From the NCBI RefSeq assembly GCF_039530225.1, contig NZ_BAAAOH010000001.1, positions 1-64,000 on the forward strand: DNA of 64,000 nt. The letters are read 5' to 3'. Origin of the DNA: Microbacterium pumilum (lineage in GTDB: Bacteria; Actinomycetota; Actinomycetes; Actinomycetales; Microbacteriaceae). The notes beneath the pieces are model-generated. The model did not search any database. It saw only the letters and a list, made by a program, of their open reading frames with translations, and was not told where the DNA came from. Every line of letters begins with the position of its first letter. The stretch's first letter is position 1. Of this stretch, positions 14,470 to 32,680 are shown piece by piece. The translations under genes were made by a program, and so were the position numbers.

Positions 14470-14509
14470 TAACGATCCTGCGCCAGCGTATGGACGAAAC
14501 GATGTTGGC
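14470..14509 (+). promoter_or_regulatory. putative AraC operator A (transporter operon)
   Basis: Two half-sites on the + strand are spaced 22 bp: TAACGATC at 14470-14477 and GGACGAAACGATG starting at 14492. The second is nearly identical to those at 17577, 20824 and 32665. The pair lies about 176-215 bases upstream of the binding-protein start, on the strand opposite to that gene, the same relative orientation as the sites before GH127, the epimerase and GH53. Confidence 0.5.
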
Positions 14510-14514
14510 ATGGT

Positions 14515-17463
14515 CTATTCCCGCGAGAAGAGCAACAGGTCGGGAAGGCTGGTCGCGAAGTAGTCGACCTCACCGTCCGCCCGCCGAGCGGCAGGCGCCG
14601 CGTACAGCGGTCGACCCTCGCCGAGGCTCAGTGGCGGATCGACGATCGGCAGCCCCAGGGCAGCGCGCGCGTGGTCCCAGGCGCCGAGCACGCGCCCCTC
14701 GCCGCCCTCCCACGGTTGGAAGCTCCGCTCTTCGAGGAGCGCGAGTGCATCCTCCGGTTGTCCGGTTCGCACCAGCAGTTCTGCATACTCGACCACGAGG
14801 TCGTCTCGCGCAACCACCACGTCGTACCGCAGGGTGAGTCGTTCGAGGCGCTCCTCATCGGTCTCGCCGAGGCGTGCGGCCAGCTGGTCGCGTTCGAAGA
14901 GCAGGCGCGCATCGTCCGGGTCGAGTTCGATCGCCCTGTCGTAGTGCTCGACGGCACGGGCGTCGTCATGGGCGATGTTGTAGCTCGCGAGTCCGGCGTT
15001 GCGATGCAGGAGGGGCTCCTCGCTCCCCGCACGAATCGCGTCCTCCCAAAGTTCCAGGGCATCTTCGCGTCGACCGACATCGAACAGCAGCATCCCGAGG
15101 AGCGACGCCGCGACGGGGTCCCCCTCCTCACGCACGGCTGCCAGCAGTGCGTCGTGGTCGTCGAGCCCGGCGGGGAAGCACCATCGGCGATCGGAGGAGC
15201 GTGCCGCTGCGCGCTCGGCCGCGGCATCCGCTGTTCTGCCGAGTCTTCCGAGGATCACCGCGCGGTGATAGTGCGCCAGCGGCCCGACGTTGCCCGACCC
15301 GTTCGCGCCCATCCGCGAGACGGCGGCGAGAACCTCGAGGGCGGCGTCGTCCTCGCCCGACTGGCCAAGCTCGAGCGCGACGTCCAGTGCAAGATGACCG
15401 TCGGTCGGCAGCTGTCCCGAGTCGAGATAGGCGAGTGTCGGGTTGAGGGGTTCCTGCGTCCGCAGTCGCTCCAATATCGCGTGGGCCTCGGCGTGCCGGC
15501 CGAGCCGGCGAAGGACGACGACCTGCAACGGGCCGCGGCGTCGGTCGTCGGATGCGACCGCGTCGAGCTCGTCCAGGTCGTGAAGCGCCGCCTCGAATCG
15601 GCCGCTGCGAGCGGACTGACGTGCCATCTCGAGGCCGGCCGGTGTCACGAAGGCCGCATCCCAGGACGCCTTGGCGAATGCGGTGCGCGCCGCGCGATCA
15701 TTTCCGCGGCGGGACTCGATCAGCCCGAGGAGATAAAGCGTCTCGGTGTGCCTCGGATTTCCATTGCGCCCCGTGATCCGAGCGAGCGCACGCTCGGCGT
15801 GTTCGAAGGCGACCTCATAGTCGGCGGCGCGGAATGCCAGCTCGGCGAGAGCGGTCAGAACCCGCGAATCCCACGGATCGCGACGGATCGCCTCGGTCCA
15901 GTACGGCAGCGGCGAGCGGCTCGGGTGACGGTACTGCACGAGATGCAGGCCGATGTAGAAGAGCTCGTCCACGCTGCCGACCTCGGCGGGCGCCGGCGGG
16001 GCGGTTGCCGTCCAGGGCTCCGCTGCTCCCTCGAACTCGACGGGGGCGGTCCACTCGACCAGGACGGTGGCGTCCGAACTCTCGAGTGCGATCGTCATGC
16101 CCGCCGCATACGGAACGTGGACAGTCACCTTCCACGGCGCACCGGGTACCAGGTCCGCAGAGTCCGCGAAGACCTCGTCACCTGCCGGGCTCAGAACCCG
16201 GAGGCGGGCGCCGGACTGCGGCGACGTGACCGCGAGTGCGGCGGAGAACACCGAATCGTGCTCGACGTGGATGGCGGCATCGGGTGTCGCCTCATGAGCG
16301 ACTCCGATCGCGGGGATCGGATACCAGTACTGACTGAAGCGCTTGGACTCCCCCGGGGCGATCCACGAGAAGTCCGGCTGGTTGTCGGTGTAGACGCCCG
16401 CCATCAATTCGACGTACGGCCCGTCTGCGTCGGTGAGCAGTCGGTCCCATGCCTGGCCGAACGGTGCGTTGCCCCAGGTCCACTGCTTCTTGCCCGGCGC
16501 GACGCGACGATCAGCCCAATGGACGAACCCGGCGCCGACCGCGTGGTCGAACCCGCCGAAGAACTCGTGATCCGTGTCGACGACCATGTACGACGTCGGC
16601 ACCGGGATGTTGCGGAAGTAGTCGATCCGATCCGCCCCGGGGGTCTCAGCCGCGCGCTCCTGGTAGTCCACGCCGTAATAGGGACGGTCTGCCTGCGGGA
16701 AGGCGGTGATCGCGCGCCGGGCGTGATCTGCGACGAATCGCACGTCCTCGGGGAAGAACGACTGGTAGTCATCGTGAACACGGACGGCGACGTTCGCCCA
16801 CCACAGGAACGTCTGAGGCAGGCTGGTGCGGTTGTGGAGCCTGACATCGAGTCGAATGGTCGATGTGTCGGGCTCCAGGTGGATGCCGTGGGTGCCGCGC
16901 ATCCGCGCGAAGGGGTCGTGATCGCTGCACCACACCGTGACGCTGCCGTCGTCGTGGTTCTCGACCGTCGACTCCACGGGGAGGAACGTGGCGGGTCTGT
17001 GGTGCTGTGGCCAGTTGAATTCCACACCACCGCTCATCCACGCTCCGGCGAGCCCGACGAGGGCAGGCTTGATGACGTTGTTGCGGTAGAAGAAGTCGTA
17101 GTCGGTCGTCTTGTCGTAGGCGACGTGAATGCGTCCGCCCAGCTCGGGAAGGATCATGACGCGGATGTACTGGTTCTCGACGTGGATCGCGCTCCACCGC
17201 CGCATCGTCGGCGCGGAGTCGATGCGCTCGGTGAACGGCAGCGGGTAGACACGGCCGCTCGATCCCTGGTACACGCGGTGATCGAGGTACATCGGGAAGG
17301 TCGACGGCTCGTGCGGCTCGTAGGTGGGGATCTCGACCGCCTCGTACCAGGCGATCGCCTGGCCCGCATCGAGGCGTCGCTTCAGGTCGCCGGGAGCTTC
17401 GGGAAGGGTGAAGGGCTGGCCGGTCGCCTGCACGTCTGGACCAGTGGTGGCTTCGATCGTCAT
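14515..17463 (-). CDS. DUF5107 domain protein with TPR repeats
   Basis: The ATG at 17463, after GAGGAA, gives 982 residues without a signal peptide. The N-terminal half (about 60-400) is a beta-sandwich of the DUF5107 type, an uncharacterised fold related to aldose-epimerase/galactose-mutarotase sandwiches: MMILPELGGRIH-like text (VMILPELGGRIHVAYDKTT), GGVEFNWPQHHRP and TWGNAPFGQAWDRLL. The C-terminal half (about 520-960) is built of TPR helices, for example DALELWEDAIRAG and AVEHYDRAIELDPDDARLLFERDQLA. DUF5107 proteins are commonly found in sugar-utilisation loci, but no reaction is established for them as far as I know. It is divergent from the AraC gene and shares its putative operator. 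Function unknown, probably an intracellular carbohydrate-active or carbohydrate-sensing protein. Confidence 0.85.
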   Translation of the reverse strand: MTIEATTGPDVQATGQPFTLPEAPGDLKRRLDAGQAIAWYEAVEIPTYEPHEPSTFPMYLDHRVYQGSSGRVYPLPFTERIDSAPTMRRWSAIHVENQYIRVMILPELGGRIHVAYDKTTDYDFFYRNNVIKPALVGLAGAWMSGGVEFNWPQHHRPATFLPVESTVENHDDGSVTVWCSDHDPFARMRGTHGIHLEPDTSTIRLDVRLHNRTSLPQTFLWWANVAVRVHDDYQSFFPEDVRFVADHARRAITAFPQADRPYYGVDYQERAAETPGADRIDYFRNIPVPTSYMVVDTDHEFFGGFDHAVGAGFVHWADRRVAPGKKQWTWGNAPFGQAWDRLLTDADGPYVELMAGVYTDNQPDFSWIAPGESKRFSQYWYPIPAIGVAHEATPDAAIHVEHDSVFSAALAVTSPQSGARLRVLSPAGDEVFADSADLVPGAPWKVTVHVPYAAGMTIALESSDATVLVEWTAPVEFEGAAEPWTATAPPAPAEVGSVDELFYIGLHLVQYRHPSRSPLPYWTEAIRRDPWDSRVLTALAELAFRAADYEVAFEHAERALARITGRNGNPRHTETLYLLGLIESRRGNDRAARTAFAKASWDAAFVTPAGLEMARQSARSGRFEAALHDLDELDAVASDDRRRGPLQVVVLRRLGRHAEAHAILERLRTQEPLNPTLAYLDSGQLPTDGHLALDVALELGQSGEDDAALEVLAAVSRMGANGSGNVGPLAHYHRAVILGRLGRTADAAAERAAARSSDRRWCFPAGLDDHDALLAAVREEGDPVAASLLGMLLFDVGRREDALELWEDAIRAGSEEPLLHRNAGLASYNIAHDDARAVEHYDRAIELDPDDARLLFERDQLAARLGETDEERLERLTLRYDVVVARDDLVVEYAELLVRTGQPEDALALLEERSFQPWEGGEGRVLGAWDHARAALGLPIVDPPLSLGEGRPLYAAPAARRADGEVDYFATSLPDLLLFSRE

Positions 17464-17554
17464 CGGTTCCTCAAATTGACACAACTTCGCCAGCGCGATG
17501 CGCGACGGCGAGCACATATCAGCGACGGTACGTCGGCCGCCCACGTGTGGAGTA

Positions 17555-17593
17555 GGACGATCGGCGCACAACAGATAGACGAAACGCTGACGC
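17555..17593 (+). promoter_or_regulatory. putative AraC operator B (araC/DUF5107)
   Basis: GGACGATC at 17555-17562 and AGACGAAACGCTGACG starting at 17577 form a direct repeat with 22-bp spacing. The site lies 20-58 bases before the araC GTG at 17613 and 92-130 bases before the divergent DUF5107 gene. Its closeness to araC suggests autoregulation. Confidence 0.55.
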
Positions 17594-17612
17594 GTTCGGC
17601 TATCCTGGCGCC

Positions 17613-18503
17613 GTGTACGTCCACGATGGATTCTTCGGTCAGCGTCTGCGGGTGCTTCCCCGCCCGGTCACGGATGCCGCGCGCACTCAGCCGATCGTCA
17701 GGCACTTCCTCGTCACTGATGCCGGCTACTTCCCGCACGCCGCCATGCATGGTCGAGCGCGGCCGCGCGGAGCACGCGAGACGATCGTGATGGTGTGCAC
17801 CGACGGAGCGGGGTGGGTCGAGGTCGCCGACCAGAACCCTGAACGAGTCGAGCGCGGAGATGCCGTCGTGCTCCCGTCCGGCATCCGGCATCGCTACCAG
17901 GCCGATCGGCAGGACCCCTGGACGATCTGGTGGGCGCACGTCACCGGTGACGTCGCCGACGACTTCGTCAGCGCGATCCTCAAGGACGGCGCCGGCCCGG
18001 TGGTGAGGCTGCGCGATGTCTACTCGGCGGTGCAGGCGCTGGAAGAGGCCGTGACCGCGCTCGAGGAAGACGAGACCATGTCGATGCTCGTGATCGCCGC
18101 GGGGGCGGCGTGGCGGGTGCTGGCCCAGGTCTTGGCGAGCCGCCTGCAGGGCGCTGGGCCCGCGAACGACCGGATCCGTCATGTGCAGGAATACCTGCGC
18201 AGCAACCTGGACACCACGTTCTCGGTGCCCGAGCTCGCGGCGATGGCCGGCCTGAGCACTTCTCACTTCTCGGCGCTCTTCCGCACCGCGGCCGAGACGT
18301 CCGTGAAGGAGTACCTGAAGAGGCTCCGCAGCGCCCGCGCGCGCGAACTTCTGCTGACGACCGACCTGACGGTCACGCAGATCGCCAACGCCGTGGGTTA
18401 TGAGGACGCGCTGTACTTCTCTCGCCAGTTCCGCGCTGTCAACGGTGTGAGTCCGACCCAGTTCCGCAGCCAGGCGGACTTCGAGTCGCTGGCGCCTGCC
18501 TGA
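17613..18503 (+). CDS. AraC-family transcriptional regulator
   Basis: A 296-residue regulator starting at GTG. The N-terminal cupin-like sugar-sensing domain (about 1-150) includes VMVCTDGAGWVEVADQNPERVERGDAVVLPSGIRHRYQAD. The C-terminal double helix-turn-helix (about 190-290) has LDTTFSVPELAAMAGLSTSHFSALF and the second helix pair ending VTQIANAVGYEDALYFSRQFR, the classic AraC signature. It probably senses an arabinose- or galactose-containing ligand and controls the surrounding locus. Tandem direct repeats of 21-22 bp found in five local promoters fit the way AraC proteins bind. The gene ends directly against the convergent GH127 gene with no spacer. Confidence 0.92.
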   Translation: MYVHDGFFGQRLRVLPRPVTDAARTQPIVRHFLVTDAGYFPHAAMHGRARPRGARETIVMVCTDGAGWVEVADQNPERVERGDAVVLPSGIRHRYQADRQDPWTIWWAHVTGDVADDFVSAILKDGAGPVVRLRDVYSAVQALEEAVTALEEDETMSMLVIAAGAAWRVLAQVLASRLQGAGPANDRIRHVQEYLRSNLDTTFSVPELAAMAGLSTSHFSALFRTAAETSVKEYLKRLRSARARELLLTTDLTVTQIANAVGYEDALYFSRQFRAVNGVSPTQFRSQADFESLAPA

Positions 18504-20765
18504 TCACGTCCAGCGCAGCAGTCGAATCATGGTGATGCCCGGAGTGGAGCACGCGCCCGTCGCGCGAAACTCGATCTTGTGCTGCGGCCCGGTCGAGACC
18601 AGGGGATACACGAGATCGAAGGCGGCCGTCCTGCGCTCGACCACCTCCTCGGCCACAGTGACCCCGTCGATGTCGATCGCGACCCGAGTGGTCTCGTCGC
18701 CCGACACGAAACCCACTCGGATGCTGGCGCCCTCGCATCCGGGATCGCTCAGGATCACCGACATCGCTCCTCGCGTGGAGCGCGCTCGTCTGCCGCCGCG
18801 CATCTGCACCCGGGATGCGATCCCACGGAACTCGTGATCACTCTCGGGTTGCTGCTCCCCGAACGCCACCGCGTCGACGGTGAGGCGATCGAGCGCCAGC
18901 GAACCGCGATCCATGGTTACGAGGGCGTCGCGACGAGCCGCGATCGCATCGGCATCGTCCGCGGCCGTCGGCCAGTAGATCGTGTAGCGCTCATCATGGA
19001 TTCCGAAGAACGGCTCGAGTGACACATCACCGGCCGGGTCGCGCGCGGTGAGCAGGAAATGAAGGGGCATGCCTGCGGGATCCGGAACGACAGCACCGGC
19101 CGCATCGGTCACGACGATCGGCAGCTCGCTGAATCCTCGCAGTCGTCCGGCCGCGATGTGCCCCATACGACTGCCATCCGCATGCAGCCCGATGAGATCC
19201 TCCCCTCCCTCACGAGCGGCGAGCACGATCGGGCCGACGGAATATGCCTGCCATGGCGAGCCATCCGGGAGCCGCTCGACTCGCGGCTCAAGAGGCACCC
19301 GGAAGGTCACGACGTCCTCCGCGAACCAGTCCCGCTCGAGGATCACCGCGCCGTCGACGTGCCTGGCATCGGCACTCCGGCCGTTGACCGCGAGATCGAC
19401 AAGTCCCCCGCTCCAGCCGGGCACGCGCAACCGCAGCGAGAATCGCTTCGGACGGTCGAGCGCGACGACGATCGAGACCCCTTCATCCGCCGGAAATCCG
19501 GTCTCCATGCGCAAACCCGTCCCGAGCTGCGGAGCGTCGAGAGCGGCGGAGATGAAGAGGTTCACTGCCAGGGCGCCGTCTTGTTCTCCGAAGATGAGCT
19601 CGCCGTACTTCGCCTGTGACTCCATGCCCGTGCCGACGCAGCACCAGAAGGACGACTCGGGCTGCGAGTAGACGCGGTAGTGGCGTGGACGCATCGGCGT
19701 GAAGTAGACGAAACCGCCATCGGGATGCTGTGCCGCGAGTTGGTGGCTGTAGAGAGCCCGCTCCGCGTAGTCCAGGTACTCGGAGGACAGCTGGGCCTCG
19801 GCGAGCGCCTTCGTCAGCTTCAGCATGTTGTAGGTATTGCAGGTCTCCGGGCCCTCACGATCCTCGATCATCGCCGTGAAGTCGTCGAGGACGTGGAAGT
19901 GCTCGCGGACACTGTTGCCGCCGATCACCACGGAACGACGCTCGACCACCTGGTGCCAGAAATAGTCGGCATCACCCAGCAACGCGCTGTCGCCGTCGAG
20001 CGCTGCGGTTGTGGCGTAGCCGACCACTTTGGGTATCTGGGTGTTCGCGTGAAGTCCCGTGAGCGCATCCCGCCGCTCCTGGAGCGGCACGAGGATGGCG
20101 CGATGCGAGAATCGGTGCGCCATGGCGGCGAGGTCGGCGCGGCCGGTGTCGGTGGCCATGCGGGCGAAGAGATCGTTCATCCCGCCGTATTCTGTGGCGA
20201 GCATATTCTCGAAGGGGTCGGCATCGATCTCGGCCGCCAGCTCGAGCCACCACTGCGCGAACCGCAGAGCGACCGCACGTGCGTGATCATGGCCGAGGAG
20301 GTCGACCGCATCCCACAGACCCGAGAGCATCTTGTGCAGGTTGTACCACGGCACCCAGTGCTCACTCGATCCGAACCGGACCGCGGCTTCCGTCCCTCCG
20401 GCCCTGAGAGACTCGAACAGCGCGAAGCCCCCGGGGACGCCGCCCACGTAACCGGTGCCGATCGCATCCTGCGCACGCGAGAGCTCTGCCACGACATGGT
20501 CGAGACGGTGCCTCACCTCAGCTCGCCCCGCGGGCAGAGCGAGCCACGCCGTCGCCGAGAGATAGTGGCCGGCCGTGTGACCGTCCAAGCCGCTGGACTC
20601 CCAATTGCCGTAGCTGTCCGCCCGCGGCGGCAGTCCTGCCTCGCGGAGGTACGGTGCGACGAGCCGATCGGGGTCGAGCGTCATCACATAGTCGAGATCC
20701 ACCTGCTCCGCGTCGCGGAACATGCCGTCGAGGAGGGTGACCTGACCCGGATGGAAGAACCTCAC
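18504..20765 (-). CDS. GH127-type beta-L-arabinofuranosidase
   Basis: A 753-residue cytoplasmic protein of the DUF1680/GH127 (or GH146) group. The (alpha/alpha)6 core (about 1-400) carries the zinc-cysteine site: Glu307 and Cys309 in ETCNTYNMLKLTKAL and the Cys pair 375-376 in SSFWCCVGTGMESQAKYGELIF. In characterised family members the first of these paired cysteines is the nucleophile. Beta-sandwich domains follow. It would remove beta-L-arabinofuranosyl residues from plant glycans or from oligosaccharides taken up. It is divergent from the GH51 gene with a shared operator C between them. A C-terminal extension of about 130 residues beyond HypBA1-like length ends in a beta-rich domain (CEGASIRVGFVSGDETTRV). 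Confidence 0.88.
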   Translation of the reverse strand: MRFFHPGQVTLLDGMFRDAEQVDLDYVMTLDPDRLVAPYLREAGLPPRADSYGNWESSGLDGHTAGHYLSATAWLALPAGRAEVRHRLDHVVAELSRAQDAIGTGYVGGVPGGFALFESLRAGGTEAAVRFGSSEHWVPWYNLHKMLSGLWDAVDLLGHDHARAVALRFAQWWLELAAEIDADPFENMLATEYGGMNDLFARMATDTGRADLAAMAHRFSHRAILVPLQERRDALTGLHANTQIPKVVGYATTAALDGDSALLGDADYFWHQVVERRSVVIGGNSVREHFHVLDDFTAMIEDREGPETCNTYNMLKLTKALAEAQLSSEYLDYAERALYSHQLAAQHPDGGFVYFTPMRPRHYRVYSQPESSFWCCVGTGMESQAKYGELIFGEQDGALAVNLFISAALDAPQLGTGLRMETGFPADEGVSIVVALDRPKRFSLRLRVPGWSGGLVDLAVNGRSADARHVDGAVILERDWFAEDVVTFRVPLEPRVERLPDGSPWQAYSVGPIVLAAREGGEDLIGLHADGSRMGHIAAGRLRGFSELPIVVTDAAGAVVPDPAGMPLHFLLTARDPAGDVSLEPFFGIHDERYTIYWPTAADDADAIAARRDALVTMDRGSLALDRLTVDAVAFGEQQPESDHEFRGIASRVQMRGGRRARSTRGAMSVILSDPGCEGASIRVGFVSGDETTRVAIDIDGVTVAEEVVERRTAAFDLVYPLVSTGPQHKIEFRATGACSTPGITMIRLLRWT

Positions 20766-20801
20766 TGCGCAAGCCTGTCTGTCTTCGAAACGCTCGAACA
20801 G

Positions 20802-20839
20802 GGACGATCAAGGTGCCGAAGCTGGACGAAACGCCGACC
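20802..20839 (+). promoter_or_regulatory. putative AraC operator C (GH127/GH51)
   Basis: GGACGATC at 20802-20809 and GGACGAAACGCCGACC starting at 20824 are direct repeats with 22-bp spacing. A weaker third copy, TTCGAAACGCTCGA, begins near 20784. The site lies 37-74 bases upstream of the GH127 start and 93-130 bases upstream of the GH51 start, so it could serve both divergent promoters. Confidence 0.55.
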
Positions 20840-20931: not shown

Positions 20932-22485
20932 ATGACAGACCCCCACTCAGGCGCCGAGACCCCGGTCCGCGCCGTGATCGATCTCGACGTCACCGGCCCG
21001 GTGATCAGCCGACACCTCTACGGCCACTTCGCAGAGCACCTGGGCAGATGCATCTACGACGGGTTCTTCGTCGGCGATCGCGCTGACGTGCCGACGGAGG
21101 GCGGCGTCCGCCTCGATGTCGTCGAGGCATTGCGCGCACTGGATATCCCGAACCTGCGCTGGCCCGGCGGATGCTTCGCCGACGAGTACCACTGGCACGA
21201 CGGTATCGGGGCGGTCGAGAGTCGGCCGACGATGGTCAACAGCAACTGGGGAGATGTGATCGAAGACAACAGCTTTGGCACTCACGAGTTCATGGCGCTC
21301 TGCGAGATGCTCGACGCCGAGCCGTACATCTCGGCGAACGTGGGCAGCGGGACGGTGCGCGAGGCGGGAGAGTGGATCGAGTATCTGACTCGATCGGATG
21401 ACAGCCCGATGGCGCGTCTGCGCCGTGCCAACGGACGCGATGATCCCTGGAAGGTCCGCTTCTGGGGACTGGGAAACGAGCCATGGGGCTGCGGCGGCCG
21501 CTTCGGACCGAAGGCCTACGCCCAGGTCGCGCGCACTTTCGGGACCTACAGCCGTGATCACAACGGCAACAGGCTCTACCGCATCGCATCGGGCGCATCG
21601 AACGACGACTACGTCTGGACCGAGACGCTCATGCAGGAACTCGGCTTCGAGATCGGGACCGGCAACTCCGCGGGGCCGAGCGTCGGCGCCTACGACGCCA
21701 TCTCATTCCACTTCTACACGATCCCCGGCACCTGGGCGCACAAGGGCAGCGCGACAGAATTCGACACAGCCGAGTACTACCGCACCCTCGCCGAGGCTGC
21801 CCGCATCGAGACACTGCTCGCCGCGCACTCGGCCATCATGGACGCCTACGATCCCGGCAAGACGATCGGACTGGTCCTTGACGAGTGGGGCACCTGGTTC
21901 GACGTGGAGCCGGGAACGAACCCCGGATTCCTTTACCAGCAGAACACACTCCGCGACGCGATCGTCGCCGGCGTCCACTTCGACGCGTTCCATCGTCACG
22001 CCGACCGGATGTCCATGGCCAACATCGCGCAGACCGTGAACGTGTTGCAGGCGATGATCCTCACCGACGGCCCTGAGATGGTGCTCACGCCGACCTATCA
22101 CGTCTTCGAGATGAACAAGGGTCACCACGACGCGACGTCGCACTCCGTCGATCTCCTCGATCCGATCCCGTCGATCGTCTCGGGCGAGCGCACCGTTCCG
22201 TCACTCAGCACGTCCGCAAGCTCTCGCGACGGCCGCGCACTCATCTCCGTCACCAATGCGCACGCGACCGAGTGGGCCTCGCTGCAGTTCGATCTGCGCG
22301 GCGCCGAGGTCGCCGGCGCGACGGGCCGGATCCTCACCGCGCCGTCGCTGCAGGCGCACAACACCGCTGACGACCCTCACGCCGTGTCGCCCCACGCGTT
22401 CCAGGACGTGCACCTCGAGGCAGGCACGCTTCAGGTTCGCATCCCCGCGCACTCGTTCGTGACGATCCAGCTCGATCTGGCGTAG
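20932..22485 (+). CDS. GH51 alpha-L-arabinofuranosidase
   Basis: The ATG at 20932, after AAGGA, gives 517 residues without a signal peptide. The family signature is complete: ISRHLYGHFAEHLGRCIYDG at the start, LRWPGGCFADEYHWHDGIG, the acid/base in GLGNEPWGCGG (Glu183) and the nucleophile in LVLDEWGTWFDV (Glu318). A C-terminal beta-sandwich follows. GH51 enzymes remove alpha-L-arabinofuranosyl side groups from arabinan, arabinogalactan and arabinoxylan oligosaccharides. With GH127 on the other strand the cell can attack both alpha- and beta-linked arabinofuranose. An ATG at 20869 opens the frame earlier but lacks homology. Confidence 0.93.
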   Translation: MTDPHSGAETPVRAVIDLDVTGPVISRHLYGHFAEHLGRCIYDGFFVGDRADVPTEGGVRLDVVEALRALDIPNLRWPGGCFADEYHWHDGIGAVESRPTMVNSNWGDVIEDNSFGTHEFMALCEMLDAEPYISANVGSGTVREAGEWIEYLTRSDDSPMARLRRANGRDDPWKVRFWGLGNEPWGCGGRFGPKAYAQVARTFGTYSRDHNGNRLYRIASGASNDDYVWTETLMQELGFEIGTGNSAGPSVGAYDAISFHFYTIPGTWAHKGSATEFDTAEYYRTLAEAARIETLLAAHSAIMDAYDPGKTIGLVLDEWGTWFDVEPGTNPGFLYQQNTLRDAIVAGVHFDAFHRHADRMSMANIAQTVNVLQAMILTDGPEMVLTPTYHVFEMNKGHHDATSHSVDLLDPIPSIVSGERTVPSLSTSASSRDGRALISVTNAHATEWASLQFDLRGAEVAGATGRILTAPSLQAHNTADDPHAVSPHAFQDVHLEAGTLQVRIPAHSFVTIQLDLA

Positions 22486-22510
22486 CCGGCCCTCGGTTCG
22501 GCTGCGGCAC

Positions 22511-23500: not shown

Positions 23501-23541
23501 TGTCTCCTGGCGAATCTAGGGCCGCGACGGGGGCGCGGAAA

Positions 23542-23571: not shown

Positions 23572-23596
23572 ATCTGGTCCGACCCTCCGTACCTGC

Positions 23597-23637: not shown

Positions 23638-23648
23638 ACGCACTCGGG

Positions 23649-26600
23649 CTACTTGACGGTGATGCTCGCACTCTTGGCTGCTGAAACGTTGCCGGCCTTG
23701 TCGGTGGCGGTGTAGCTGATGGTGTGCGTTCCCTTGCCTGTGACCGGGATGGGACCGGTGTAGGCGGTCCATGCGCCCTGGTCGAGGCTGTAGGTGATCG
23801 CGGCGACGCCTGACAGCGCATCGGTCGCGGTCAGGGTCACCGGCACCGTGCCGACCTGACTGTTCGTGAAGGCGGCCGTAGCAACGGGAGCTGCGGTGTC
23901 GCGTTTGATCACGATCGTGCCGATCGTTGAGACGTTGCCCCTGTTGTCGGTTGCCCGGTAGGTGAACGTCGTTTCACCGGCGGGCACCGAGATGGCTGCC
24001 GTATAGGGCTTCCACGCTCCACCGTTGACCTGGTACTCGCGGCTCGCGACGCCCGACGAGTCGGACGCGACGAGGGAGAGCGACACCGCCGCTGTGCCCT
24101 TGAACCAGCCGTTCGTGCCGGTCGGCGCAGCCGGGCTCGTCACTGCCGAGACCGTGGGCCCTGTGGTGTCGGGCGCGACGACGGTGATCGTGGCGGTCCT
24201 GGTGGCGGAGGTGTTCCCGGCGTTGTCGATCGCGCTGTAGTACAGGGTATGACTGCCCGCGCCGGTCACCGGGATGACGGCGTCGTAGGTCGTCCATGGA
24301 CCCTGATCCAGCGAGTACACGATCTTCCCCACCCCCGACGTCGCATCCGTCGCGTTCAGCGTCACCGGCACGGTGCCCACCCCACCGTTCGTGTAGGTCG
24401 CCGACGCCACGGGCACGACGGTGTCGCGCTTGACCACGACGCTGTGCGTGGCCGAGACGTTCCCTGCCTTGTCCGTGGCCCGGAACGAGTACGTCGTGGT
24501 TCCCACCGGTGCGGCGATCGACGCTGAGAAGATCGTCCACGCCCCCGAGCCCACCCTGTACTCGATCGACTTGACACCCGCGGTGGCGGCGCTGGGCACG
24601 GCCGGGTCGGTGGCGGTCGCCTTGAGCGACACCGTCCCGGTGAACCAGGAGTTCAGCCCGGTCGGTGCCTCGGGGGTCGTCGTCACCACCAGCACCGGCG
24701 CGGTGGTGTCGGGTGACGCGATCCGCACCGTCACCGTCTTCACCGTCTCCGTGTTGCCGGCGAGGTCGGTCGTGGCGTATGCCACCACGCGGTCCCCGGC
24801 ACCCTCGACGTAGAACGCGGCCGAGTACTGCGTCCACGTCCCCCCGTCGATCTGATACCAGGTGGAGCCGATGCCCGAGAAGGTGTCCGTGCGAGACAGC
24901 GTGACCTTGACCGGATCCGAGCCGGCTCCACCGAGATCGTTGAACGATGCCGCGGTGACCGGGAGCGTGTTGTCGCGCTTCACGGTGACGGTCTTGATCG
25001 CAGACACATTGCCCTTGGCGTCGGTTGCCCGGAAGCCGTACGTCGTGGTGCCCGCCGGAGCGCTGATCGGAGCCGTGTACGCCGCCCACGCTCCGGTGCC
25101 GACGCGGTACTCAGTCTTCGCAACTCCGGAGACGTCCGTCGCCGCCGCGCTCACCGTGACCGCCGAGGTGAACCATCCGTTGGCTCCGTCGGGCGACGTC
25201 GGGTTCGTGGCGACGGTGAGCAGCGGGGCCGACGTATCAGGACCGACGAGGACCTGACTCGACTTGATCGTCCCGGCGTTGCCCGCAGGGTCTGTCGCCG
25301 CGAACTCCACCGTGTGGACACCCGCACCGGTGATCACGAACGGCGTCGTGTACGTCTTCCAGCTGCCGGAGTCGATCCGATAGCTGATGGACGCGACACC
25401 CGACACGACGTCGGTGGCGATCACGGTGACCGTCGCGGAGGTCGCCGTGGTGGCAGCCGCTGTCGATGACGCCACGGGGGCGTCCTCATCGCGCTTGACG
25501 GTGACCGTCTTGAAACCCGACACGTTGCCCTTGCCGTCCGTTGCCCGGAAAGTGTAGGTCGTGGATCCGACCGGCACTGCGATGGGCGTCGAGTAGGTCG
25601 TGAACGCACCGGATCCGGCACGGTAGGTGATGCTGTCGACGCCGGACTGGGTGTCGGTCGCGGTCAGGGTCAGGGTCACGGGCGATGTGAACCATCCGTT
25701 CGCGCCGTTCGGCGCCGCGGGAGTGGTGGTGCCGGTGACCACGGGTGGCGTCGAATCGACCGGTGCGAACACGACCGCGGCCGACTTCGTCGCCTCGACG
25801 TTGCCCGCCCTGTCGGTCGCGGCGAACGTGATCGTCGCGTTCGTGGCCACCTCGAAGACACCCGTGTAAAGAGTGCTCGCCCCGCCGTTGACCGAGTAGG
25901 TCACCCCGGAAACCCCCGACCCGCCGTCCGTCGAAGTCAGGACGACTTCCACCGGACCCGTCGCCTGCCCGTCCTGGTCGTCGAACGACGCCGCAGAGAC
26001 CGGTGCCGTCACGTCTCGTTTCACCGTGATCGTGTCAGGCGCCGAGACATTGCCCTTGGTGTCCGTGGCGCGGTACTCGACCTCCACGATTCCCTCCGGA
26101 ATGACGACCGGAGAGGTATAGACCGTCCACGACCCGCCGTTCGCCCGATACTCGATCGAGGCGATCCCGCTGCGCTCATCGACGGCGGACAGCGTGACCG
26201 ATACCGCTCCGGCGTACCAGCCGGCGAGGCCGGACGGTGCAGCGGGCGCCGCGACGGCGGTGACGACCGGCGCCACTGTGTCGGCAACGGCGATCTGGAT
26301 CGTCGCCGTCGATACGGCCGACACGTTGCCTGCGGCATCGGATGCCTCGTACGCGACGGTGTGGGTCCCGGCACCCGTCACCGACAGCGGTGTGGTGTAG
26401 GTCGTCCACGCTCCGCCATCCAAGGTGTAAGCGATCGATCCGACGCCGGAGCCGGCGTCCGTCGCCGAGAGCGTGACCGCGACCGGGCCTGTCGACGCAC
26501 CCGAGTGATCGTCGAAGTCTGCGCTCACCGCCGGAGCCGTGTCATCGCGCTTGACGGTCAGGGACTCCTGGTCGGACACGTTGCCCTTCCCATCCGTGGC

Positions 26601-27345
26601 GCGATACGAGACCGCCATCGAGCCCTCATCGAGCGCCACCGGACCGGTGTACGTCGTCCAGGTGCCCGAGCCGACCGTGTACTGGATCGAGCCGATGCCC
26701 GATCGGTCGTCGGTCGCGGTCAGCGTCAGCGCGACCGCGCCGACGTACCAGCCGGCGTCGCCGGTCGGAGATGCCGGGTTGAGGGACGCGGCGACGATCG
26801 GGGCGGTGGTGTCTGCGGCCACGATGCTCACAGTGGCTGTCTTCACCGAACCCACGTTGCCCGCCACGTCGATCGCACGGTACGTCACGACATGCTCACC
26901 CGCGCCGCTCACCGACACCGGCCCGGAGTAGGTGAGCCACGTGCCTCCGTCGACGGAGTACGAGATCGTGTCGACCCCGGATGCGGCATCCGTCGCCGAG
27001 AGCGTCACCGCCACCGGACCCTCCGTCGTGCCGTCCGCGTCATCGAAGGCGGCCGCCGCCGCCGGGCCGACCTCGTCGCGCTGCACGGTGACCGTCTGCA
27101 CGGCAGACACGTTGCCCTTCGTATCCGTCGCCCGGTATCCGAACGCGGTTGCACCTTCGGGCGCCGCGACCTGCGCTTCGTAGTCCGTCCATGCGCCGTC
27201 GGCGCCGACCCGGTACTCGATCGAGGCCACACCCGCGTCATCCGTCGCCGACAGGGTGACTCCGACAGCGCCGGTGTACCATCCCGCGAGACCCGTGGGG
27301 CTCGCCGGGTTCACCGTCGCCACGACAACCGGAGCCGTCGTGTCG
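23649..27345 (-). repeat. seven tandem ~527-bp coding repeats (A-B Ig-like pairs)
   Basis: The C-terminal 1230 or so residues of the GH53 protein are seven units of about 176 residues. Each unit has an A domain (PASPTGxxGWYxGAVxVTLSATD...) and a B domain (AASFDDxxGxxTGPVxVTLSATD...). The copies are clearly diverged from each other (for example GWY in early units, GWF in late ones), so the array is old rather than a recent slippage product. Domains of this type are usually surface-exposed spacers or adhesive modules. Confidence 0.8.
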
Positions 27346-30300
27346 GGGGTGGCGATGGTGACGGTGAAGCCCGTCTTCTTCGTCTCATCCGACTTCAGTG
27401 TCACCACGACCACGTCGGTGCCCGGCTGTGCAGAACTGAATCCGGAGATCGTGTACTCATCTGCCTCCAGCACGGTCGTCGAGCCGTCGGTCAGGGTCGC
27501 GGTGACCTCGAGACCGTCGGAGACGAGTTCCTCACCGACCTGATACGTCGTCTTCGTCGGCTGGTGCGTCACGGCGATGGATGACGCTGTGGGCGCGGGA
27601 CCGACCCGGAACGTGATCGCCGCCGTCTTCGGTTCGCCCGTGTAAAGGCTCACCGTCACGTTGACGGTCGCAACGCCATCGGCGATCGCGGTGAGCTCAC
27701 CTGTCTCGGAGTCGATCTCGACGACGCTGGGATCAGTCGACTTCCACTCGATGTCGGCGACATCGGTCGCGCCGTCACCGCCGGTGAGGCGTGCGACGAG
27801 CTGGTCTTCGTCACCCACGTCGAGCGGGATGGTCGAACCGGACTCCCCCTCTTCGTAGACGTAGTCGCCGTCGGAGTCCTCGACCCAGAAGAATTCCGAG
27901 GCGCGGATCTCGTTGGTCACCGTGACGGGCACGTCGACGTAGACGGTCGGGTCGACTGCCGAGGCGACACGCACCGTTGTGGTGCCCGACACGACTGTGT
28001 TCAGAGACGAGTAGAGGTGGGCCGGCGTGACAAGCCCGCTGCTGGTGACGGTCACCAGATTCGTGTTCGCGGAGGTGTACGTCACGTTCTGGCTGATGGT
28101 GGTGGGCACCACACCGCTCGAGAGCTGGAACTGCGTCATCCGCGTGCCGGTGATCGGGATGAACCGGATGCCGGTCGAATTCACGGTGACGGTCTTCGCG
28201 ATGGGAGCTGCCTTGTAGATGTTGACGTCATCGAGCATCGTCGTCCACGACATGGTGGCGCTCGGGGCACGAGTCGTCCACCACTGCAGGGAAGCGACGT
28301 TGCCGTTGTAGACCGTGTCGGCCGCGAACGGAACCGTGTGAGTGGCGGTGATCGCCGGGTTGTCCTTGCGGGTGATCGTGAAGACCGACTGCTTGGCGAT
28401 CATGTCGATTTCGACATGCACCTTGTACCAGACGTTGTTGACGTTGAAGCCGGTGCCTACCGGAGTCGTGTTGGCGAGCGGCTCATTCGTCGTCGCCGAT
28501 GTGGAGCCCGACTTTCCGCCGCTCGCGTAGACGAGTTCGGTTGCCCAGCTGTATTGGATGCCGAGGTACCGGCTCTCCGTGCTGTCTGCGATGGTGAGGA
28601 ACGCGCCCTTCGTGCCCGTGGGTTGCCCGACATGCCAGTCGAAGTCGAGGATCACGAGGTCGTTCTTCACGGCGGGAGAGATGTATCTCGCGCCGCCTCG
28701 ACCACCTGATCCGCTTCCGACGGCCGCGAGGACCTGGTCGCCGTTGCTGTCGATGACGGCGGCATTCATGACTCCGCTGTAGTTCGCCGCACGGCCGGTG
28801 CTCCACGTGTCGCCGATCGTGCGGTTGTCGAACGAGTCGCTGATCGTCGGCACGTAGACCGTGATGGAGTCGTGGAACAAGCCGTCCTCAGACGAGGCGG
28901 TGATGGTCGCCACACCCGCTGAGACGGCCGTGATGATGCCGAACGAGTTCACGGTGGCGACCGTGGGTGTGTCCGACTTCCAGATCACGGTGTCTTTCGT
29001 CGCCTCGATCGGAGCGATCGCCGCCGAGACCGCGATGGTCGGCGCGACGGTCCCCGGGTTCACCGTCGAGAAGTAGTCCGAGGCGAAGAAGTGCGTGTGG
29101 CGGTCGAGGGTAATGCCGGTGACCGCCACTTCGTCGGTCTGCACGGTGACGGTCGCATGTGCGGTGAACCCGCCCTGCGCGGTGGTGGCGGTGATGATGG
29201 CCGTGCCGGCGTGGACGCCGGTCACTGCGCCGGATGCGCCTACCGTCGCGATCGCCGGGTCGGACGTCGACCATGTGACGGACTTGTTGTCGGCGTCCTC
29301 GGGCAGGACGAGCGCCGAAAGGGGCTTCGTAGACCCGGTCTGAACGGTGAGCGAAGTCTTGTTGAGCACCACACCCTCGACCTGCACCGGCACGACCGTG
29401 ATCGCCGAGGTTGCCGCCATCGTGGTGCTGTCGTCGGATTCCGCGCGGATGGTGGCGGTGCCGGGTGCGACCGCGGTCACCATGCCCATCTTGTCGACCT
29501 TCGCGACCGCCGGGTTGGAGGAGGTCCAGTTCACCTTGTACAGCGTCGCGTTGGCCGGCGCGATGGTCGCGACGAGCTGCAGTTTGCGACTGTTGCTCAC
29601 GGTTGCGCTCGTCTTGTTCAGCGTGATCGAGGTCACGGCCACCTTGGTGGTGTTGAGCGTGAAGGACTTCGTTGCGCCGCCGTCGGCCGAGGTCACCGTG
29701 ATCGTCGTCGTGCCTGCGCGCTTGATGTCGAGCTGAACCTTGGACGAGTCATCGGTGCGCTGCTTCATCGTGCCCACGGGTGTCTGCCACGTCTCGCCGA
29801 AGAACGAGGCGATCGTCGGGTCGGAGGATTTGTAGGTGACCACCTTCGTCGTCGCATTGGCGAGAGTCGCGGTCAGATCGAGCCGGGCGAGAACCGCGGC
29901 TGTCACCGTGCCACCATCGGCGACCGTCGTCGTGCCGGCCGTCACCGCGAGGTCGGCATTGGTCGCCTTGGTCGTGGCGGAGACGGTCACGCTCACCGTC
30001 GCGATGTGACCCGCGGCATCCCGTGCCGTCACCGTCGTGGAACCGGGCGCCAGCGCCTTCACATAGCCGTTGTGGGTGACGGAGGCGACGGCCGGGTCGG
30101 AGGACGAGTATCGGACGGTGCTGTCAGTGAGCACCTGCGCAACAGGTGTCACGGTCGGCTTCAGCCGCTGGCTGAGTCCCACCGTCAGCGAGATGGCGCT
30201 GTCGGCGACCGAGATTCCCGTCGGGACGGTCGGCGTCACGGCATACGCGCCGCCCGCGATGCCGTTGTCCGAGCTCAGCGGCGAGTAGGCCGTCACCGGC

Positions 30301-32582
30301 TTGGCCTTGGGAAGGCCCCGCCAGAGGTAGCCGTACATCGAGTCCATCATGTCGCCGGCCTTGCCGGAACGAGTGCTGCCCATCTCCTTGATGGTGACGT
30401 CACCGTTATTGAACATGATGCGACCGGCGACGTTCGCGTTGCTCGTCTGACTGCTGCCTGCCCCGGGTGTCGGGATCCAGTCGGTCTCCCAGTAGTAGAA
30501 CCCGCGAGTCTGGCCGTACGGGTTGGGCGTGTCGAGCGCCGCTTGCTGGTAGTCGAGGATCCAGTTGTACTGACCGTTGGGGTTGCTGCGGTAGTAGGCA
30601 GACTGGCCCATCGACGCGACCTGCTGGTCGAAGCTCGAGAGGTATTTGGTGAACGCGAAACCGGTCTCCACATTGAGATAGTCGCGGTAGCGGCGCACTG
30701 GATCGGCGTTCTGCACCGTCGCCATCTTGATGATGTTGCCGCTGGAACGACCGCCGTAGAGCGAGTGCGACTCACCGTCGAACTTCGCGCCGGCGGCGGT
30801 CAGGTTGTTGAAGATGGCGTCGGTGTACGGGACGTCATAGCCGTTGTTGGAGTGGATCGAGCGGGCTGTGCCGGGAGCGGCCGCTTCGACGGCATCCCAG
30901 GTCGCCGTGATGATCGAGGCGTGACCGACGGATGCCGCGCCGCGGCCGATGGGCCAGATGAGGCCGCCGTCTTGCTCGTTTCCCTGCTTGACACCGGCGA
31001 TGTCGACACCGGCTGCTACGAGGCCAGACACGAAGTCGTAGACGTAGTTGTACACGATCGACTTGATGTGGGCGAGGTCGGTATTCGTGCGTTTACCGGC
31101 GTAGTCGGTGTTGATCCACGAGGACGGCGCGTACGCCTTCCCCGCACTGATCCACGAGTCGGAGTAGTGGAAGCTCGGCATGTAGCTGATGCCCAGCTGG
31201 CTCGCGCGCTGGGCGAGCCTGGTGGTGTGAACCTTGTCGAAGTAGCCCTCGATCATCCGGTACTCGATCGGGTTGCCTGCAGCGTCCAACTGGTCGCTGT
31301 AGATCGGTTCGAGGGTGTTGTTGTCGTAGACGGTATTGCCCGCCTGCACGAAGATCATCGAAATGATCGAGTTCACTCCATGGTTGGACAGGATCCGGAG
31401 GCCATCCTGCTGCACGCCGTTCGCGAAGTACTTGCCGCCCTTGTCTTCGATCGCCGGCATGAACGATACGTCGGCGCCGCGGATGTTCTCGTCGTCGTGG
31501 ATCACGAAGAGGTCGGCTGTGTCGACATACGCCGACCCGGCACCGTTGCCGGTCCAAGGGTCTTCCACGTAGGAGCCCTCGGTTTTCCACACCGTCACGG
31601 AGGACTGATAGGCAGCGTCGTTGATGGTGTTGGCGTACAGCACGACGGCATGGTCGTCAGGGCCGGTCTCGAACGTGATCGAGACGAGCGAGTAGCCCGT
31701 GGTGCCGGCTGGGGCCTGCCGCAGGACAGTGCCGCCCAGGGTCTTGACGCCGATGTTGACGCGGTCGCCGGTCGATTCCCGATGCACCAGCTCGCCGTTG
31801 ATGCGGTCTTTCGAATCCTTGGTCTTCTCGGTCGAAAAGGTGTCCTGCTCGTCGACCTTCGCACGGACGGTGAAACCGTAGCGCGTGTTCGGCTCGACGG
31901 CGACCTGCTGCGCGACCTGCCCGCCCGCAGCAAGCTTGACCGCCTTCTCGCCCGTGTCGGCGTTGTCGGTGACCACGGTCACGCCGGCATTGGCGCTCCA
32001 GTCATCGAGCCCCGACTCGAACCCCCAGTTGGCGAGCGATTCGTCGGCGGAGTCGAGGGTCAGCTCGAGAGTGTCGACGCTCAGTGCGGTGCTGCCGGCC
32101 GTGATGGTCAGGACGACTTCGCCCGAGTAGACCAGGACGTTCCGGTTGGATGTCTGCTGCCACGCGGTGCTGCTGAGGTTGGCGTCGAGGAGCATGACCG
32201 AGTTCGGCCCGCCGCTGCCCGACACCGTGATGTTCGCGACATTGTTGCCTGCTGAGCCGCGGAACCACCCTGTCAGGCTGTAGCTTCCCTGCTGCAGCCC
32301 GGTGATCGTGACCTGCGCGGTGGCATTGGCCGGGAGCGCCGCATAGCGGCTGCCGTCCTGCGCACCACTCGTGGGCGAGGTGACCGCCCCCGTCGTGTCC
32401 CAGCCCGTCAGCCCTCCCTCGAAGTCGAGGTTCGCGCCTGCCATGCCCACGCTGAGCGGCACGAATGCGATCTCGCGCACGCTGCCGGTCTCGGCCGCGG
32501 CGACCGATGAGACGACCAGCACCGACGCGATCGCCAGAGCGATGCCGGTGACCACCGATCGAAGAGCCTCTTTGACGGACAT
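23649..32582 (-). CDS. giant secreted GH53 endo-beta-1,4-galactanase with Ig-like repeats
   Basis: A 2977-residue protein with a Sec signal peptide (about 1-31). ATG 32582 follows AAAGGAG. Domains in order are: two carbohydrate-binding-like sandwiches (about 50-345; NLDFEGGLTGWDTTG and WGFESGLDDWSANAG); a GH53 barrel (about 365-775) with GADVSFMPAIEDKGGKYF, the acid/base in GVKQGNEQDGGLIWPIG (about Glu535) and the nucleophile in YLNVETGFAF (about Glu639); five Big_2-like Ig domains (about 780-1240); a jelly-roll domain (about 1243-1460); further Ig domains including a Big_3 type (to about 1745); and seven pairs of TDxxSGVxxIxY...AxDxxGNVS repeats to the end. It should cut beta-1,4-galactan in type I arabinogalactan outside the cell. 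There is no LPXTG or membrane anchor. Operator D lies upstream. Confidence 0.9.
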   Translation of the reverse strand: MSVKEALRSVVTGIALAIASVLVVSSVAAAETGSVREIAFVPLSVGMAGANLDFEGGLTGWDTTGAVTSPTSGAQDGSRYAALPANATAQVTITGLQQGSYSLTGWFRGSAGNNVANITVSGSGGPNSVMLLDANLSSTAWQQTSNRNVLVYSGEVVLTITAGSTALSVDTLELTLDSADESLANWGFESGLDDWSANAGVTVVTDNADTGEKAVKLAAGGQVAQQVAVEPNTRYGFTVRAKVDEQDTFSTEKTKDSKDRINGELVHRESTGDRVNIGVKTLGGTVLRQAPAGTTGYSLVSITFETGPDDHAVVLYANTINDAAYQSSVTVWKTEGSYVEDPWTGNGAGSAYVDTADLFVIHDDENIRGADVSFMPAIEDKGGKYFANGVQQDGLRILSNHGVNSIISMIFVQAGNTVYDNNTLEPIYSDQLDAAGNPIEYRMIEGYFDKVHTTRLAQRASQLGISYMPSFHYSDSWISAGKAYAPSSWINTDYAGKRTNTDLAHIKSIVYNYVYDFVSGLVAAGVDIAGVKQGNEQDGGLIWPIGRGAASVGHASIITATWDAVEAAAPGTARSIHSNNGYDVPYTDAIFNNLTAAGAKFDGESHSLYGGRSSGNIIKMATVQNADPVRRYRDYLNVETGFAFTKYLSSFDQQVASMGQSAYYRSNPNGQYNWILDYQQAALDTPNPYGQTRGFYYWETDWIPTPGAGSSQTSNANVAGRIMFNNGDVTIKEMGSTRSGKAGDMMDSMYGYLWRGLPKAKPVTAYSPLSSDNGIAGGAYAVTPTVPTGISVADSAISLTVGLSQRLKPTVTPVAQVLTDSTVRYSSSDPAVASVTHNGYVKALAPGSTTVTARDAAGHIATVSVTVSATTKATNADLAVTAGTTTVADGGTVTAAVLARLDLTATLANATTKVVTYKSSDPTIASFFGETWQTPVGTMKQRTDDSSKVQLDIKRAGTTTITVTSADGGATKSFTLNTTKVAVTSITLNKTSATVSNSRKLQLVATIAPANATLYKVNWTSSNPAVAKVDKMGMVTAVAPGTATIRAESDDSTTMAATSAITVVPVQVEGVVLNKTSLTVQTGSTKPLSALVLPEDADNKSVTWSTSDPAIATVGASGAVTGVHAGTAIITATTAQGGFTAHATVTVQTDEVAVTGITLDRHTHFFASDYFSTVNPGTVAPTIAVSAAIAPIEATKDTVIWKSDTPTVATVNSFGIITAVSAGVATITASSEDGLFHDSITVYVPTISDSFDNRTIGDTWSTGRAANYSGVMNAAVIDSNGDQVLAAVGSGSGGRGGARYISPAVKNDLVILDFDWHVGQPTGTKGAFLTIADSTESRYLGIQYSWATELVYASGGKSGSTSATTNEPLANTTPVGTGFNVNNVWYKVHVEIDMIAKQSVFTITRKDNPAITATHTVPFAADTVYNGNVASLQWWTTRAPSATMSWTTMLDDVNIYKAAPIAKTVTVNSTGIRFIPITGTRMTQFQLSSGVVPTTISQNVTYTSANTNLVTVTSSGLVTPAHLYSSLNTVVSGTTTVRVASAVDPTVYVDVPVTVTNEIRASEFFWVEDSDGDYVYEEGESGSTIPLDVGDEDQLVARLTGGDGATDVADIEWKSTDPSVVEIDSETGELTAIADGVATVNVTVSLYTGEPKTAAITFRVGPAPTASSIAVTHQPTKTTYQVGEELVSDGLEVTATLTDGSTTVLEADEYTISGFSSAQPGTDVVVVTLKSDETKKTGFTVTIATPDTTAPVVVATVNPASPTGLAGWYTGAVGVTLSATDDAGVASIEYRVGADGAWTDYEAQVAAPEGATAFGYRATDTKGNVSAVQTVTVQRDEVGPAAAAAFDDADGTTEGPVAVTLSATDAASGVDTISYSVDGGTWLTYSGPVSVSGAGEHVVTYRAIDVAGNVGSVKTATVSIVAADTTAPIVAASLNPASPTGDAGWYVGAVALTLTATDDRSGIGSIQYTVGSGTWTTYTGPVALDEGSMAVSYRATDGKGNVSDQESLTVKRDDTAPAVSADFDDHSGASTGPVAVTLSATDAGSGVGSIAYTLDGGAWTTYTTPLSVTGAGTHTVAYEASDAAGNVSAVSTATIQIAVADTVAPVVTAVAAPAAPSGLAGWYAGAVSVTLSAVDERSGIASIEYRANGGSWTVYTSPVVIPEGIVEVEYRATDTKGNVSAPDTITVKRDVTAPVSAASFDDQDGQATGPVEVVLTSTDGGSGVSGVTYSVNGGASTLYTGVFEVATNATITFAATDRAGNVEATKSAAVVFAPVDSTPPVVTGTTTPAAPNGANGWFTSPVTLTLTATDTQSGVDSITYRAGSGAFTTYSTPIAVPVGSTTYTFRATDGKGNVSGFKTVTVKRDEDAPVASSTAAATTATSATVTVIATDVVSGVASISYRIDSGSWKTYTTPFVITGAGVHTVEFAATDPAGNAGTIKSSQVLVGPDTSAPLLTVATNPTSPDGANGWFTSAVTVSAAATDVSGVAKTEYRVGTGAWAAYTAPISAPAGTTTYGFRATDAKGNVSAIKTVTVKRDNTLPVTAASFNDLGGAGSDPVKVTLSRTDTFSGIGSTWYQIDGGTWTQYSAAFYVEGAGDRVVAYATTDLAGNTETVKTVTVRIASPDTTAPVLVVTTTPEAPTGLNSWFTGTVSLKATATDPAVPSAATAGVKSIEYRVGSGAWTIFSASIAAPVGTTTYSFRATDKAGNVSATHSVVVKRDTVVPVASATYTNGGVGTVPVTLNATDATSGVGKIVYSLDQGPWTTYDAVIPVTGAGSHTLYYSAIDNAGNTSATRTATITVVAPDTTGPTVSAVTSPAAPTGTNGWFKGTAAVSLSLVASDSSGVASREYQVNGGAWKPYTAAISVPAGETTFTYRATDNRGNVSTIGTIVIKRDTAAPVATAAFTNSQVGTVPVTLTATDALSGVAAITYSLDQGAWTAYTGPIPVTGKGTHTISYTATDKAGNVSAAKSASITVK

Positions 32583-32643
32583 GTCACTCCTTTGTGGGTG
32601 AAGACTGGGGCTGACGCTACGGCCGCCCGACGAGGGCGCCCAA

Positions 32644-32680
32644 GGACGAACGAACCGCGCACCTGTACAAAACGCTGATC
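32644..32680 (+). promoter_or_regulatory. putative AraC operator D (GH53)
   Basis: GGACGAAC at 32644-32651 and GTACAAAACGCTGATC at 32665-32680 form a direct repeat with 21-bp spacing, 62-98 bases upstream of the GH53 start and on the opposite strand. The AACGCTGA end matches site B exactly. Confidence 0.5.

Follow-up and report, generated by a model that had tools for sequence, protein, structure and literature searches.

What do the tandem repeats in the intergenic gaps of a Microbacterium pumilum polysaccharide locus do? The locus lies in a stretch of 64,000 nucleotides (GCF_039530225.1, NZ_BAAAOH010000001.1, 1-64,000 of the forward strand), which we call the window. An earlier note on this DNA proposed that five repeat pairs mark five promoters of a local regulon, controlled by the AraC-family protein encoded at 17613-18503. 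All five pairs are present, with start-to-start spacings of 22, 22, 22, 22 and 21 bp. Two questions arise. Are the pairs a real signal? And is this AraC protein what reads them? From comparison of sequences we conclude that the repeats are very probably the operators of this protein, laid out like araI1-I2 of Escherichia coli and serving about seven promoters of one locus.

The signal is in the pairing. The second half alone has 11 matches in the window at up to three mismatches, compared with 10.0 expected. This is not above chance, and we dropped single half-sites as evidence. The pair behaves differently in the genome-wide count that the note had proposed as a check: GGACGATC-N14-GGACGAAACG, allowing three mismatches, has 19 matches in the 4.45 Mb of the organism's own genome, against one for a backwards control. 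The only matches with no or one mismatch, and one of the two with two mismatches, are the sites at 20802, 17555 and 14470; the remaining two-mismatch match is at 2282707.

A motif learned without the window finds the same sites. AraC relatives were drawn from 58 nearby genomes (its own included), from named genomes and from 398 family genomes of a larger group. Identity to the window protein is 85% in Agromyces allii, 69% in Lacisediminihabitans and 44-47% in Cellulomonas; a match at E <= 1e-50 occurs in 71 of the 398 family genomes, own included, with at most six candidates scored per genome. We used 44 stretches around AraC relatives, some genomes contributing two; three stretches (L145, L146 and L150) are shorter than 20 kb because their contigs end. 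A plain consensus scan of the relatives proved too coarse; in its place we fitted a two-block motif de novo to the 220 bp upstream of 43 AraC relatives, with the window and A. allii excluded. Its commonest bases are ATGGCnGATCC-N10-CTGGACGATnCGCTGA. It is present in 34 of the 43 relatives; the other nine have no such site upstream of AraC. In the window it scores sites at 20800 (29.7), 37218 (26.4), 17553 (24.0), 32642 (23.4), 14468 (21.8) and 37268 (21.5). All six exceed the best of 30 shuffles of the window (20.7), and they include four of the five sites first noted.

Are the two blocks copies of one another? In the 53 sites with a 10-bp gap, the half-site columns correlate at 0.68 when shifted by 21 bp; the other nine shifts tried give at most 0.18 and inverted comparisons at most 0.33. 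The operator is a pair of direct half-sites whose spacing, 21 or 22 bp, is about two turns of the helix, as is characteristic of the AraC family. Toward the target gene, the half-site core reads GATCnnCCAT.

The operator stands at a regular distance from what it serves. We built a promoter model from the half-sites and a -10 box, trained on 59 promoters outside the window and A. allii. One row, L163:8633-8705, was dropped before A2 and R2 owing to an ambiguous target call, so R2 has 58 rows. The box, TAnnnT, follows 22-23 bp downstream of the site; one of two adjacent offsets holds 91% of the fitted weight, and the frequencies are 0.92 for T, 0.90 for A and 0.98 for the final T. Among 76 pairs of site and target, counting those of the window and A. 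allii, the site centre is 50-57 bp from the called start codon in 35 and exactly 53 or 54 bp in 28. For the relatives, gene starts may be inaccurate, the genes having been called with a rough codon scorer that was trained on genes of the window. By both distances, and with start points that are predicted, the operator occupies the -35 position of an activated promoter, the placement known in the AraC family.

With this model the window contains seven promoters (Table 1) scoring 21.7-37.6, and the next match scores 10.2. Shuffled sequence gives 0.03 matches per 64 kb at 20 or more, the largest of 100 shuffles reaching 24.4. Promoter 5 is the least secure of the seven by this test because its score falls below that value; R2 nevertheless ranks it third in its own genome, and A. 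allii has a counterpart (L050:13824-13882). The proposal of five promoters stands for four strong sites. The fifth site, at 23542, is weak, and three more had been missed: 37218-37254, 37268-37304 and 32770-32806, which serve the 2-hydroxyacid dehydrogenase/GH43 pair, the acyltransferase and the ABC (ATP-binding cassette) exporter. Nor does the locus end at 32680, as first drawn, since promoters also lie at 32770-32835 and 37186-37335.

Table 1. Predicted promoters and principal genes of the locus (SBP, solute-binding protein; AKR, aldo/keto reductase; HTH, helix-turn-helix; score, promoter model; E, R2 search of the organism's own genome)
Feature	Position	Strand	Details
Promoter 1	14437-14505	-	operator 14468-14505; -10 TATCGT 14445-14440; before SBP-AKR run; score 26.5; E 0.0013
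Promoter 2	17522-17590	-	operator 17553-17590; -10 TACCGT 17530-17525; DUF5107; score 33.0; E 0.0016
Promoter 3	20772-20837	-	operator 20800-20837; weak -10 CAGGCT 20777-20772; GH127; score 32.6
Promoter 4	32611-32679	-	operator 32642-32678; -10 TAGCGT 32619-32614; GH53 protein; score 33.3
Promoter 5	32770-32835	+	operator 32770-32806; -10 TAGCTA 32830-32835; ABC exporter; score 21.7; E 8.3e-4
Promoter 6	37186-37255	-	operator 37218-37254; -10 TAGCGT 37194-37189; score 37.6; E 1.4e-4
Promoter 7	37268-37335	+	operator 37268-37304; -10 TAGCGT 37327-37332; score 29.7; E 0.0016
Weak candidate promoter	23511-23577	-	operator 23540-23577; -10 TAGATT; before aldose epimerase; score 10.0
AraC-family regulator	17613-18503	+	cupin AraC_binding + AraC-type HTH; Pfam HTH_18 8.3e-23, AraC_binding 2.5e-11
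Extracellular SBP of ABC importer	12975-14294	-	Pfam SBP_bac_1
Importer permeases	11981-12853, 11057-11977		Pfam BPD_transp_1
GH35 beta-galactosidase	8741-11017	-	in the importer's gene run; Pfam
DUF5107 + TPR protein	14515-17463	-	Pfam
GH127 beta-L-arabinofuranosidase-like	18504-20765	-	Pfam; GTG start 20765
GH51-like alpha-L-arabinofuranosidase	20932-22485	+	Pfam Alpha-L-AF_C; NCBIfam ArfA below cut-off
Multi-domain GH53 protein	23649-32582	-	2977 residues; GH53 domain residues 367-727; Pfam

The promoters are concentrated in this locus. A sequence-only operator model of 34 rows, R1, gives 10 matches at E <= 10 in the own genome, and six of the best eight are in the locus (best 150 of 1302 candidates scored). 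R2 gives 23 matches among the best 150 of 3529 candidates. Its best six, at E 4e-5 to 0.0016, all lie in the locus, led by Promoter 4 (E 4.4e-5), and the next has E 0.2; these E-values are rough. The best match outside the locus, at 68078, was rejected as a further target: by eye it looks like coding sequence.

The promoters also travel with the AraC gene. We searched 28 genomes outside the training set, scoring the best 150 candidates in each. All 14 with an AraC relative have a promoter match (worst best-E 0.0035), the best in each lying within 5 kb of the AraC gene. Of the 14 genomes in which this AraC has no match at E <= 1e-25, four have a promoter match at E <= 0.05 (Fisher p 8e-5 against 14/14).

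Which gene does the operator between AraC and DUF5107 serve? In 22 of the 44 stretches DUF5107 and AraC are divergent neighbours; in 16 DUF5107 lies elsewhere in the stretch, and six have no match. A site is present in all 22 relatives with the divergent pair, 21 of which belong to the motif's training set. The sites upstream of DUF5107 face alike in 29 of 29 cases, seven of them outside any AraC-DUF5107 spacer, which bears out the claim that the repeats keep one polarity relative to the gene served. Sites not upstream of AraC and with a single candidate gene start agree in 24 of 26 cases (window and A. allii included). The note had read the copy before the AraC start as AraC's own. There is a site there, but it is better read as the operator of divergent DUF5107, covering the AraC promoter as well: Promoter 2 overlies a likely AraC promoter (TATCCT, 17601-17606). 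As an operator mainly for AraC it was rejected, TAnnnT lying within 30 bp toward AraC in only 14 of 36 sites. Such boxes are few toward AraC and dominant toward the targets, and nine of the 43 relatives have no site upstream of AraC; we therefore assign the operator to the divergent target. A stricter rule, that no site occurs where AraC has no divergent target, fails: six of the nine siteless loci do have a divergent neighbour (by rough gene calls).

The protein itself resembles E. coli AraC. Its best NCBIfam model is PRK10572, E. coli AraC, aligned over 50-288 at 96.3 bits, below the 208-bit cut-off, and it is only 24% identical to E. coli AraC over 278 aligned residues; its best solved relative by sequence is 2k9s, the AraC DNA-binding domain. 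HTH_AraC matches in two stretches, giving the double HTH typical of the family, and residues 38-152 form a cupin sensor (PF02311) of the sugar-responsive branch. The arabinose pocket of E. coli AraC contains P8, T24, R38, Y82, H93 and W95. In an alignment at 24% identity, R38, Y82 and W95 are kept in 17 of 17 proteins (the window's and 16 of the 44 relatives') and P8, T24 and H93 in none.

Would the learned half-site recognize the E. coli operators? On the araB-araC spacer, read toward araB, the four best positions by the distal half-site model are, in order, -310, -99, -173 and -79, counted from the start codon. A score of at least 2.0 is reached by three sites, compared with a shuffle mean of 0.24; 0.2% of 500 shuffles have three. 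We take -99 and -79 to be the I1 and I2 sequences and -173 to be part of O1. The site at -310 presumably falls within the published O2 range (PMC7408454), provided that the transcription start lies 27 bp ahead of the codon. The arrangement in our locus is like that of araBAD: direct half-sites in a 21-bp register, a centre near -53, a near half-site at -35 and a regulator divergent from its target. In E. coli, araI1/I2 is centred at -52.5 and overlaps the -35 in part, as an excerpt of PMC7408454 has it. Unlike araBAD, the locus mixes spacings of 21 and 22 bp in one genome, has about seven promoters in one polysaccharide locus and shows many leaderless-looking starts.

We propose the following mechanism. 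An AraC dimer would bind two direct half-sites 21 or 22 bp apart, the centre of the site lying about 53-54 bp ahead of the start of transcription. That distance would put the near half-site in the place of the -35, from where the protein would help RNA polymerase use the TAnnnT box. At many targets the start codon sits where transcription should begin, predicting leaderless mRNA; TANNNT about 12 bp before the start codon marks leaderless genes, according to an excerpt of PMC3160421. Since the AraC gene is divergent from DUF5107 and the shared operator covers its promoter, the protein would be expected to repress its own gene.

Could the same protein, on the same operators, chiefly repress, or behave like AraC as a switch, looping the DNA from site to site in the absence of sugar? 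Several operators lie within 23 kb, one covers the AraC gene's own promoter region, and E. coli AraC, a dual regulator, represses by forming a DNA loop (excerpt of PMC7408454). The near half-site, however, ends beside the -35, and the -10 stays uncovered at a constant distance, as an activator would be placed. We regard a mainly repressing or looping role as unlikely. Less likely again is binding by some other AraC-family protein. The own genome has 10 matches to the window AraC at E <= 0.001, itself included, and one AraC-less genome, G271, has a site; but the runner-up among the own matches has only 28% identity, and both the 22 of 22 divergent spacers (mostly training data) and the 14 of 14 untrained genomes place the site beside this AraC gene. 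It is very improbable that the repeats have nothing to do with AraC and are the signature of a general promoter or alternative sigma factor, or a dispersed repeat: a -10 box does accompany the motif, but beyond the six locus matches the best own-genome E is 0.2 among the 150 candidates scored, and the direct repeats keep a 21-bp register and match E. coli AraC half-sites. Chance resemblance in G+C-rich sequence scarcely deserves belief and is refuted for the promoters, if not for 23540-23577: half-sites alone occur at chance frequency and the epimerase site, taken singly, scores no better than chance, but six paired sites beat all 30 shuffles, six of the seven promoters beat all 100, and several window sites are conserved in A. 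allii as islands.

Several observations weigh against operators of this AraC protein at seven activated promoters. Two of the 44 relatives' stretches (L142 and L145) have no site scoring at least 18. Of the site-target pairs, 41 of 76 fall outside 50-57 bp, in part through longer leaders or rough start calls, and three targets have no TAnnnT at the expected place. The GH127 promoter has its weak -10 and ranks 13 of 23 in the R2 own-genome search (E 0.73), and the epimerase site is near chance, with 1.2 matches expected per 64 kb at a promoter score of 10 or more. Two counterparts that the first model finds in A. allii, L179:10747 (Promoter 6) and L050:13714 (epimerase), are not recovered by R2. 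The 14 test genomes with AraC hold only more distant relatives, about 43-47% identical. Finally, the matches in AraC-less genomes (G271 5e-6, G074 0.0026, G073 0.0265, G436 0.0266), one of them strong, suggest that another regulator may use a similar site. DUF5107 is found at E <= 1e-40 in one AraC-less genome, G073. The G271 match (L242 9718-9780) lies upstream of a GH35 gene, with no AraC match in the 20 kb fetched.

On balance the comparative evidence supports well the claim of a direct-repeat operator of AraC type and a local regulon centred on 17613-18503. The epimerase is the uncertain member. Its site has a motif score of 13.1 (2.4 expected per window at 12 or more), differs at five positions from the 14-base second half as first noted, is absent from the R1 own-genome matches at E <= 10 and ranks 18 of 23 with R2 (E 1.42). 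Its inclusion is near chance by score and is favoured by a footprint common to one relative: the A. allii block upstream of the epimerase matches it at 14 of 16 bases in the right half and 9 of 11 in the left, the flanks having largely diverged. In A. allii the epimerase is directly followed by the ABC exporter, with no GH53 match in the stretch.

At 20800, the strongest operator of the window, the -10 box adds only 3.8 to the score. The note had counted GH127 and GH51 together as targets here; the polarity of the site fits GH127. The A. allii stretch gave no match to GH127 or the GH53 domain; its counterpart of the site keeps the half-sites and has no -10 toward the missing GH127, which makes regulation of GH51 by this site possible. 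With R2, A. allii also has counterparts of the SBP (L050:6821-6887), DUF5107 and ABC exporter promoters and a further counterpart at L179:10663-10727.

The operators bear on several start codons. An in-frame ATG at 17517 of the DUF5107 gene lies 54 bp from the operator centre, and A. allii has an in-frame ATG at the matching place; this suggests a start at 17517 rather than at ATG 17463, giving a leaderless protein 18 residues longer. The exporter GTG at 32842 is likewise 54 bp from its operator centre (taken from the list of open reading frames; the rough caller gives 32866). Promoter 6 would serve the in-frame GTG 37181 of the 2-hydroxyacid dehydrogenase, chosen by position (rough caller, 37199), and then the ThuA/GH43 gene; Promoter 7 would serve GTG 37339 of the hexapeptide-repeat acyltransferase. 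The Promoter 4 transcript would have a leader before the GH53 protein's ATG at 32582. The spacer 37181-37339 is short and divergent and carries two opposed operators. Four regions have two opposed sites between divergent genes: 37218/37268 in the window, L147, L152 and L159; L152 site 16447 and L159 site 16737 have no TAnnnT at the expected place. By eye, a GCACCAT-like stretch below the -10 box is common to the leaders of L164, L168, L172, L173, L174, L175 and L177, which belong to second sites at about 6030-6206 or 13675-13893; it could be a leader element. A conserved leader peptide starting M-C-S before SBP/DUF5107 was rejected as inconsistent.

What would such a regulon be for? The run SBP-permease-permease-GH35-AKR extends from 14294 down to 7691 on the - strand and probably forms one operon. 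Pfam also identifies an aldose epimerase, the ABC exporter, ThuA/GH43, 2-hydroxyacid dehydrogenase and hexapeptide acyltransferase products, and the 2977-residue GH53 protein has five Big_2 Ig stretches and other domains. The gene set suits a galactan that carries arabinose side chains, the probable substrate, and the seven or so promoters would serve the breakdown and uptake of galactan/arabinogalactan side chains. In the relatives, ten other target genes identified by Pfam encode three importer binding proteins, a GH35, an aldose epimerase, two alpha-galactosidases, two cellulase-like proteins and an aldo/keto reductase. A DUF1016/YhcG-type PDDEXK nuclease gene at 42753-43802 is unrelated to the locus.

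How does this regulator compare with others? Bifidobacterium GosR (formerly GalR), a controller of galactan use, is a LacI-family protein; ours is instead AraC-family, Pfam at E <= 0.001 giving only AraC-type HTH and cupin families. Like GosR, as far as an excerpt of PMC4746261 describes it, our protein would control galactan use locally in an actinobacterium. CdhR of Pseudomonas aeruginosa offers another likeness: in the excerpted text of PMC5806209, it is an AraC-family gene divergent from the operon it controls, with a direct-repeat site, and an activator that inhibits its own gene. It differs in being class I, binding upstream of its promoter (same excerpt), whereas our sites abut the -35; ligand and pathway are unrelated.

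We found no earlier description of this regulon in what we saw of one open-licence library; it is a new regulon of an already known kind. It provides a base-level promoter map of a glycan regulon that can be tested, and it links DUF5107, an uncharacterized family, to plant-glycan use as a regular neighbour of the AraC regulator. The fixed distance at which start codons commonly follow an operator can be used to correct start-codon calls and to pick out leaderless genes, and the half-site match with the E. coli ara sites bears on the long-term stability of AraC recognition. It is possible, if not yet probable, that local glycan regulons throughout Microbacteriaceae and Cellulomonas are under a DUF5107-tied AraC family, with an araBAD-like half-site, a 21-bp register, a position near -53 and leaderless starts. 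The AraC operator code would then have persisted across phyla while the genes under its control changed, from galactan enzymes to alpha-galactosidases, cellulase-like proteins and others, and DUF5107 would be the constant member, whose function may be revealed through the regulon.

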